From: Marivita lacus
GTDB lineage: Bacteria; Pseudomonadota; Alphaproteobacteria; Rhodobacterales; Rhodobacteraceae
Reading direction: 5' to 3'
Assembly (NCBI RefSeq): GCF_014637725.1
Contig: NZ_BMFC01000002.1
Location: 248,907-312,906, forward strand
Length of the DNA: 64,000 bases
The notes beneath the pieces are model-generated. The model saw only the letters and a list, made by a program, of their open reading frames with translations, ran no database searches and was not told the DNA's origin. The translations under genes were made by a program, and so were the position numbers. Shown piece after piece: positions 55,046 to 60,293 of this stretch (position 1 is its first letter; each line of letters starts with the position of its first letter).

Positions 55046-59412
<4,367 letters not shown>

Positions 59413-59420
59413 CCCCTTTT

Positions 59421-59445
59421 GTTCTCAAATGTTCTCAAAAAGTTC
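59421..59445 (+). promoter_or_regulatory. LexA (SOS) box with three GTTC half-sites
   Basis: GTTC occurs at 59421, 59431 and 59442. The last two form GTTC-TCAAAAA-GTTC, an exact match to the alphaproteobacterial LexA consensus GTTC-N7-GTTC. A GAAC half-site lies at 59469-59472. It is 54 bases before the microprotein start. Confidence 0.75.
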
Positions 59446-59498
59446 TTTACAGAGCGATCTGGTTATGAGAACAAAAGAGCAACAAGGAGGACATTACC

Positions 59499-59633
59499 AT
59501 GATGCAACGGATCAAAACCTCTCTTCATGCGGCCAAAGCCCAGACCAATACAGCGCTTCTCGAAGACGCGCTGGGGGCTGTGTCGCTGGTTGTCATGCTG
59601 GTTGCGGCGCTGCATCTTCCGGTGCTTGTCTGA
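59499..59633 (+). CDS. Putative SOS-induced small membrane protein
   Basis: 44 residues behind a consensus AAGGAGG site 8 bases upstream. The cationic, amphipathic start (MMQRIKTSLHAAKAQTNTAL) is followed by one hydrophobic segment (about 24-44; ALGAVSLVVMLVAALHLPVL). A LexA box lies 54 bases upstream and a strong terminator 123 bases downstream, giving a stand-alone unit. By size, topology and control it parallels Caulobacter SidA, a SOS-induced single-span inhibitor of cell division; no sequence kinship is claimed. ATG 59502 is an alternative start. Confidence 0.7.
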   Translation: MMQRIKTSLHAAKAQTNTALLEDALGAVSLVVMLVAALHLPVLV

Positions 59634-59755
59634 CTTTGTTTTCTGCCTGCGTGTTTCGCCTGAACGCTCATCCGCATCCTGTCCCAAAAGATGCACCTGT
59701 CCCAGAAGGTAGCCTGCCTTCCGAGCGATGATGGCCCCAAAGAACACGTCACTTC

Positions 59756-59790
59756 ACCGCCGCCTTCTTTCGAAGCGCGGCGGTTTTTTT
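59756..59790 (+). terminator. Rho-independent terminator of the microprotein unit
   Basis: ACCGCCGC pairs with GCGGCGGT (8 bp) with an inner CTTC-TTTC-GAAG hairpin, then a run of seven T. Confidence 0.88.
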
Positions 59791-59840
59791 ATCATCTGGT
59801 AAAATTTTGCGATCGGGTGGGCGGTATCAGGCGGTCGGCA

Positions 59841-60293
59841 TCACGCAGATTGGGTCTGGGCAAGCTGTGTGACAGCATCCGATGCCGCCTCGAGTGTCAG
59901 CAGGATCGATGCGTGGCGGTTCTTGAACGCGACCGCAGGGCGCAAGACCTCAAGCCCGTCAAACGGTGCCGCCGGTGTGGGGCCATCTTCCTTCAGCATG
60001 GTGCGCAATTCGTCCCTGGCATGGGTGATCTGGTCTTGCGTACAGCCAAGGATCGCACTGCCCACAACAGACGCCGCCGCCTGACCCAGCGCGCAGGCTT
60101 TGACGTCCTGCCCGAAGGCCGCGACCTTGCCATTCTCGAGTGTCAAATCCACCGTCACAGTCGATCCGCAGAGCGGCGAGCGTTTCTTGACCGTGGCCCC
60201 GGGCGCGTCGAGCCGTGCGTGATACGGTATGTCCGCCGCCAGTTCGAGGATGCGGCCGGAATAGAGCTTGATCAGGTCGGTGTCGCCGGACAT
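59841..60293 (-). CDS. NifU/IscU-like iron-sulfur scaffold protein
   Basis: 150 residues. The IscU/NifU-N fold is shown by RSPLCGSTVTVDL, VKACALGQAAASVV and DGLEVLRPAVAFKNRHASILLTLEA. Two of the three canonical cysteines are present (in PLCGS and KACALG). At the third position the segment reads NRHASILL, with histidine in place of cysteine. This form looks like a variant scaffold or regulator rather than standard IscU. It is divergent from hisI. Confidence 0.85.
   Translation of the reverse strand: MSGDTDLIKLYSGRILELAADIPYHARLDAPGATVKKRSPLCGSTVTVDLTLENGKVAAFGQDVKACALGQAAASVVGSAILGCTQDQITHARDELRTMLKEDGPTPAAPFDGLEVLRPAVAFKNRHASILLTLEAASDAVTQLAQTQSA

Follow-up and report, generated by a model that had tools for sequence, protein, structure and literature searches.

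An operator array, an open reading frame (ORF), a 3' RNA and a terminator make up one conserved unit, almost always located behind recG, in most of the Rhodobacteraceae sampled, a family which includes abundant marine roseobacters, Rhodobacter and Paracoccus. The copy described here resides in Marivita lacus, in a window (the whole stretch of DNA analysed) of 64,000 nucleotides, positions 248,907 to 312,906 of contig NZ_BMFC01000002.1. In the reading proposed, which is judged evenly poised between true and false, the four parts form a one-gene SOS unit, repressed by LexA and with a dual output, a membrane protein of 40-44 aa and a structured RNA, and the unit probably works as a brake on growth or division. 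No SOS division inhibitor is named for this lineage in the available texts of the open-licence literature searched. The view of how the SOS response acts would be broadened by a conserved LexA-controlled transcript giving both protein and RNA, and a candidate found in 346 of 393 genera, provided with a diagnostic promoter, makes the missing SOS division inhibitor testable in one strain.

A short gene behind recG

The end of recG, read directly from the sequence, falls at 59412, and the parts of the unit follow as reported in Table 1. An earlier note on this DNA had described, just after recG, GTTC-N7-GTTC plus a third half-site, a consensus AAGGAGG, a 44-codon frame with one C-terminal hydrophobic span, and a strong terminator. 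All are found in place. The half-sites, read at 59421-59445, start at 59421, 59431 and 59442, with spacings of N6 and then N7, and the terminator is a bulged GC-rich hairpin (59756-59784) running into T7 (59784-59790) in the fold. The operator array had been described in part, as the three half-sites on the plus strand stand and the inverted GAAC-N7-CAAC at 59469-59483 was absent from the note. The terminator recurs in alignments A3 and A4; a simple terminator scan called none, presumably because the hairpin is bulged. The next gene-like frame (59841-60293, 150 aa) lies on the opposite strand, in convergent orientation. It has no Pfam match at E 0.001, and its product, judged by eye, may be akin to a small iron-sulfur scaffold protein.

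Table 1. Features of the unit downstream of recG in Marivita lacus, in window coordinates
Feature	Positions	Strand	Basis or remark
Upstream GTTC half-site	59421-59424	+	N6 before next half-site
LexA-type box B1, GTTC-N7-GTTC	59431-59445	+	83/86 loci; matrix score against controls
TTTACA, candidate -35 element	59446-59451	+	Consensus over 70 loci; putative role
Inverted LexA-like box B2, GAAC-N7-CAAC on the + strand	59469-59483	-	One letter short of GAAC-N7-GAAC
Shine-Dalgarno AAGGAGG	59484-59490	+	Read from sequence
Microprotein ORF, 44 aa, single-span membrane	59499-59633	+	Profile, pN/pS, predicted helix
Structured 3' RNA element (CUGCC motif, stem P1, hairpins H1 and H3)	59643-59754	+	Covariance model R2, covariation, fold
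P1 5' arm, GCGUGUUU	59649-59656	+	Pairs with 59742-59749 in minimum-energy and centroid fold
P1 3' arm, GAACACGU	59742-59749	+	Minimum-energy and centroid fold
Hairpin H1, stem GCAUC/GAUGC, loop CUGUCCCAAAA	59674-59694	+	Fold; covariation (helix 4)
Hairpin H3	59705-59721	+	Window's own fold; pairs outside the covariance model
Intrinsic terminator, GC hairpin with one bulge into T7	59756-59790	+	Fold

That the 44-codon frame is a real gene is virtually certain. By using a profile of 47 proteins, the ORF has been identified in 347 of 394 Rhodobacteraceae genomes, corresponding to 346 of 393 genera, and in 308 of the 347 family genomes of good quality. A profile of 14 proteins retrieves it in 342 of the 394 family genomes, and a search with the single sequence matched 27 of 61 genomes, including all 17 of its own genus. 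The gene is near-universal in the Rhodobacteraceae sampled, and not a local feature. A class-wide profile search matched 5 of 337 genomes, all five belonging to the family, and plasmid and phage records yielded no match to one family member. Part of the genomes missed by the profile carry divergent copies: the loci of G017 and G419, fetched after the promoter pattern had matched there, host by eye versions of both the ORF and the 3' region. The earlier note had proposed to judge the frame and its boxes by their conservation among relatives, and both are conserved (347/394 genomes and 83/86 loci, respectively). According to one alternative, the RNA is the functional product, and the ORF is fortuitous. 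The RNA is indeed strongly structured and conserved, but the pN/pS ratio of 0.19 (pN 0.075, pS 0.388; 120 pairs from 16 loci of the own genus), the residues invariant over 144 unique proteins and the lack of internal stops in the ORF matches listed make this exceedingly improbable.

recG lies upstream of the ORF in all of 86 family loci. A scan of GTDB contigs with the promoter pattern retrieved at least 118 stretches; of the 80 listed, 77 have the ORF within 450 nt. Two of the other three, one record from Muribaculaceae and one from Butyrivibrio, are taken as chance, and the third is a locus cut by its end. recG is found upstream in 74 of the same 80, the other six being the two chance records, two loci which begin too close to the site for a judgement (L191, L226), and L161 and L231. 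In these last two, from Frigidibacter and Loktanella, promoter and ORF are kept and there is no recG end within 600 bases upstream, hence the unit and recG have parted there.

The operator array

Counting GTTC-N7-GTTC was dropped as evidence. The motif occurs 4 times in the window versus 1.98 expected, a number reached by 11 of 100 shuffles, and 152 times in the genome versus 129 for the reversed control. As the lone motif is near chance, conservation was used instead. Within 230 bases upstream of the ORF, in the 86 family loci, GTTC-N7-GTTC was found in 83, the triple half-site GTTC-N6-GTTC-N7-GTTC in 74, the inverted GAAC-N7-NAAC in 85, and GAAC-N7-CAAC in 79. The offset from B1 to B2 is 38 bp in 78 of the 83 loci having both. 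It is this recurrence across loci which places the arrangement far above chance. The 20-mer GTTCTNANAAAGTTCTTTAC, with at most one mismatch, is carried by 255 of 394 family genomes, nearly always as a single copy, versus one genome of the 394 for its reversed control. The promoter consensus, drawn from 70 loci (capitals, at least 90%), reads tgTTC.CaaaTGTTCtcAaAAAGTTCTTTACa, 11 variable bases, a.aTGaGAACAAAg.ggcAACaaa. TTGAC replaces TTTACA in some genomes, and a sigma-70 scan called no promoter.

The boxes resemble those of established SOS genes. recA, lexA and uvrA were located in 20 family genomes, lexA in all of them, and an exact GTTC-N7-GTTC lies within 260 bases upstream of recA in 18/20, of lexA in 20/20, and of uvrA in 17/20. 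The best score obtained with a matrix built on 55 boxes of these three genes has, in the 86 loci, a median of 17.9 in the DNA preceding the ORF, whereas shuffled sequences give -1.1 and coding DNA of recG -4.1; at one locus, L088, which has a run of N in the 3' region, the matrix scan found no boxes. LexA-type control of the microprotein, as suggested by the earlier note, receives thereby strong comparative support, and on the evidence of the operator sequences the unit is very probably under LexA control. Intact LexA, bound to B1 next to the promoter and to B2 close to the start region, would keep the unit off, and RecA-triggered cleavage of LexA after DNA damage would turn it on.

B2 deserves comment. 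A perfect GAAC-N7-GAAC at this place was found in none of the 86 loci; it was found in both divergent loci, those of G017 and G419 (L398, L399), which are outside the 86, and this fits a LexA box. The second half-site CAAC (59480-59483) is a conserved mismatch in the LexA-like box. The recA box of the Marivita lacus genome, GAACAAGAGGCGAAC, differs from B2 at 4 of 15 letters. Several lexA promoters, those of L117, L118, L119, L122 and L123, have three consecutive half-sites, GAAC-N7-GAAC-N7-GAAC. The uvrA gene of G025 is split in two matches (L154, contig C3, 1480057-1482850; model positions 1-643 and 643-924), perhaps by a frameshift or an assembly error.

About 97% of the SOS promoters of Caulobacter have a single LexA box, according to the available text of PMC12700426, and compared with these the multi-box array described here is unusual. 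The same text reports that constitutive expression of SidA in a lexA mutant leads to filamentation. An operator of such complexity fits a product whose untimely synthesis is harmful, as with SidA. In Dinoroseobacter shibae, which shares with the present unit the family and the operator type, the LexA regulon predicted in silico includes lexA, recA, dprA, pde2, and flagellar, GTA and pilus genes (PMC6473078, as far as available); neither recG nor the terms small protein or hypothetical protein appear in the available main text. The recG gene of some alpha-Proteobacteria appears to be LexA-regulated, as stated in the accessible part of PMC3323433; the unit described here is downstream of recG. 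Neither the ORF nor the RNA is described in the available parts of PMC6473078, PMC3323433, PMC4211646, PMC4414408, PMC10907235 and PMC12700426, or in the open-licence literature searched, a body of texts to which subscription journals are largely external.

The RNA downstream of the stop codon

The region between stop codon and terminator (59643-59790) is, on strong comparative evidence, very probably a structured RNA. It had been missed in the earlier note, and the element would represent a new RNA family. The set analysed includes 72 sequences, 13 of the 16 loci of the own genus having been left out as redundant, and L088 being left out as well. Two short motifs recur in the 200 bases after the stop. 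TGTCCC is found in 61 of 71 loci, versus 1/71 for recG coding DNA and 7/71 for shuffled sequences, and CTGCCTG in 55 of 71, versus 17/71 and 4/71, respectively. Stem P1, in which the segment following CUGCC pairs with the segment preceding the terminator, has at least 8 pairs in 61 of 67 single-sequence folds (mean 16.7 pairs; 5 of the 72 sequences were too short), versus 35% of the shuffles (mean 6.1) and 23 of 67 coding controls. Most of the six loci failing this test seem, by eye, to have a misplaced anchor. The stem re-forms with different sequences between genera.

Covariation points in the same direction. On seed A5, 12 sequences aligned blind to structure, the covariation score is 0.203 versus 0.141, and none of 500 shuffles reaches 0.203; further pair types on the same seed are not above shuffles, as 478 of 500 reach the count. 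A covariance model made from these 12 sequences, R1, matched 36 of the 80 listed loci at E 0.01 or better. All 36 matches have the correct orientation; they follow the promoter 20-mer by 176-290 nt and the ORF stop by 1-80 nt, and at least two of them (L217, L194) seem to repeat training genomes. Over 96 matches, changes on both sides were observed at 20 of 20 pairs, in an alignment fitted to the structure and for which shuffles already give 16.5, and in 310 cells, versus 67 in shuffles. The covariation score on the same fitted alignment is 0.465 versus 0.155 for shuffles, and versions slid along the sequence score 0.093 at most. Two matches included in alignment A8 are off the expected place (L237, 2423-2564; L204, 7630-7743).

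Model R2, made from 74 matches, recovers the element as the best match in the window (E 5.2e-5), with E 0.0039 for the whole genome. In the R2 alignment most P1 pairs of the window are non-standard or unformed, and for this reason P1 in the window rests on the fold. R2 matches 9 of 9 genomes which contain the ORF, and none of the 20 listed among the 47 where the profile missed the ORF; one of these 20, G017, has a divergent copy that R2 missed. In the class, R2 matched 4 of 289 genomes, all four Rhodobacteraceae. Rfam 15 gave no match up to E 1 on either strand of positions 59300-59900, and none at the gathering score in five related loci. Folding energies are less telling. The 3' region of the window folds with its terminator at z -3.6, and over the 72 loci the region deprived of the terminator has a mean z of -2.04, versus -1.56 for recG coding DNA. 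Since energy z-scores are weak, covariation and the P1 test were used instead. RNAalifold retrieved only the terminator, both from a structure-blind alignment of 20 divergent sequences and from all 72.

In the consensus, conservation of the unpaired CUGCC and CUGUCCC motifs equals that of the stems, and a loop bearing UGCCU recalls H3. Pairing of the 3' RNA with the ribosome site of its own ORF, considered by eye, was set aside, because the ribosome-site sequence varies between genera. It is a serious possibility, a little short of the proposed reading in probability, that the protein is the sole product of a plain SOS microprotein gene, and the RNA a cis element serving message stability or termination. 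All RNA matches obtained in genome searches with an E of 0.02 or less are located 3' of the ORF (the own genome yields one more, at E 0.77), the RNA ends in the terminator, and the next gene-like frame is on the other strand, all as expected from a cis element. Stable 3' ends normally require only a terminator hairpin, however, and single-stranded motifs conserved as much as the stems are not needed for simple stability. Whether the RNA acts in trans is equally balanced. According to the dual-output reading, the RNA would either stay on the message or be cut out, and its unpaired CUGCC/UGUCCC motifs would act on other mRNAs.

Possible action of the protein and of the RNA

The protein has one C-terminal hydrophobic span, and its length in the family is 40-44 aa. 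The structure model is a single helix (residues 3-43), with a pLDDT of 94 over residues 21-40. Over the 144 unique proteins, in model numbering, D19, G22 and P37 are invariant where present, and L26, L30 and L34 are nearly invariant. The gaps between these six most conserved positions of the span (D, G, L, L, L, P) are all of 3 or 4 residues, a property shared by 144 of 74,613 possible position sets, the count having been made post hoc, after the data had been seen. A seventh position (36), the conservation of which almost equals that of the sixth, is off the helix face, and the periodicity of conservation around the helix is not significant (p 0.06). Among Pfam, NCBIfam and PHROGs, any one model matches at most 2 of 47 members. 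The best match (E 0.0029) is to an unnamed PHROG, the others being single, weak, and to unlike families.

The short, single-span inner-membrane form fits inhibitors of the SidA type, on the assumption that the protein inserts in the membrane as predicted. In the available text of PMC4211646, SidA of Caulobacter crescentus is LexA-controlled. SidA has 29 aa and binds FtsW. The likeness, which extends to DidA, is that of a very short single-span inner-membrane protein in an alpha-Proteobacterium; SidA differs for its size, 29 versus 40-44 aa, and for the structured 3' RNA, which is present here and is not mentioned for SidA in the same available text. By analogy, the protein may act as a division brake, a view to which slightly less than even probability is given. 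It would insert with the N-terminus in the cytoplasm into the inner membrane, and the helix face defined by D, G, L, L, L and P, at steps of +3/+4, would hold a membrane partner, most likely one in the divisome. Binding of the partner would slow division during DNA repair, as SidA does.

Two other roles of the protein have to be weighed. The protein may tune another membrane machine in the SOS response, such as a protease, a transporter or a respiratory complex. The lack of any Pfam, NCBIfam or PHROGs family, apart from weak matches to at most 2 of 47 members, leaves room for this. Known SOS-induced single-span peptides are mostly division inhibitors or toxins, and the possibility is rated as rather low. 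Alternatively, the peptide might depolarise the membrane, thus slowing the damaged cell, rather than bind the divisome. TisB of Escherichia coli is a small membrane peptide controlled by LexA, and so is DinQ of the same species, according to the available part of its source. Short single-span peptides, LexA-type control and an elaborate promoter would all suit such a role. The conserved residues along one helix face suggest instead a specific partner, with the reservation that the periodicity is not significant. TisB and DinQ work with antisense RNAs, and their class has long structured leaders. Here a strong Shine-Dalgarno closely follows the promoter, Rfam has no match on either strand, and no conserved RNA was found other than the sense-strand element that follows the ORF. 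An antisense RNA of an undescribed kind may exist, and a TisB/DinQ-like function is judged unlikely.

For the RNA, the closest parallel is DinR of Klebsiella pneumoniae, an sRNA cut from the 3' end of the LexA-controlled dinI mRNA, which blocks ftsZ translation (PMC10907235, in the part available). In both cases a short mRNA, controlled by LexA there and provided with a LexA-type promoter here, carries a 3' RNA ending in a Rho-independent terminator. In the same available text the pairing stretch of DinR is Klebsiella-specific, whereas the element described here keeps its fold across the family. Given the action of DinR on ftsZ, this gene was picked as a candidate target before its sequence was viewed. 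CAGGCGGA is found in 26 of 28 ftsZ leaders and in 2 of the 1209 other start sites taken from four genomes, and an eight-base pairing, including one wobble, can be drawn by hand between CAGGCGGA and the 5' motif of the RNA, UCUGCCUG. With the 5' motif CUGCCUG, the median percentile of ftsZ against background start sites is 0.019 in 26 genomes, and ftsZ is within the best 5% in 77% of them, whereas other segments give 0.20 (H1 loop, 23 genomes) and 0.12 (linker, 20 genomes). Relative to composition-shuffled segments, the mean z is -1.14 for ftsZ in 26 genomes, in a run with the ftsZ start codon misplaced in three of them (G268, G428, G113) and corrected for the percentiles, versus -0.27 for recA, -0.21 for lexA and 0.00 for uvrA in 12 genomes each.

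Other rankings are less favourable. Summed over segments, ftsZ ranks 60/368, 29/388 and 36/349, ftsZ of G113 not having been recovered for this ranking. In single genomes, start sites of other genes outscore ftsZ with the 5' motif. The RNA motif has changed in some genomes, as in G025 (CTGCCAC), while the ftsZ site is unchanged. The ranking evidence is thus mixed, and ftsZ as target of the 3' RNA is a lead, to be regarded as doubtful. Doubt is greater still for the combined scheme in which a two-armed brake is core to the family, the microprotein stalling the assembled divisome, and the RNA (CUGCCUG, UGUCCC) covering the ftsZ start and thereby stopping the supply of new FtsZ. Such a scheme, if true, would amount to a checkpoint made of both protein and RNA. 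ftsA was considered as a second target of the RNA; GGCAG occurs in 3 of 4 start sites, too little to make a claim. Independently of any pairing, the Shine-Dalgarno region of ftsZ, about 7-18 bases before the start codon (L290-L317), is nearly invariant and non-standard.
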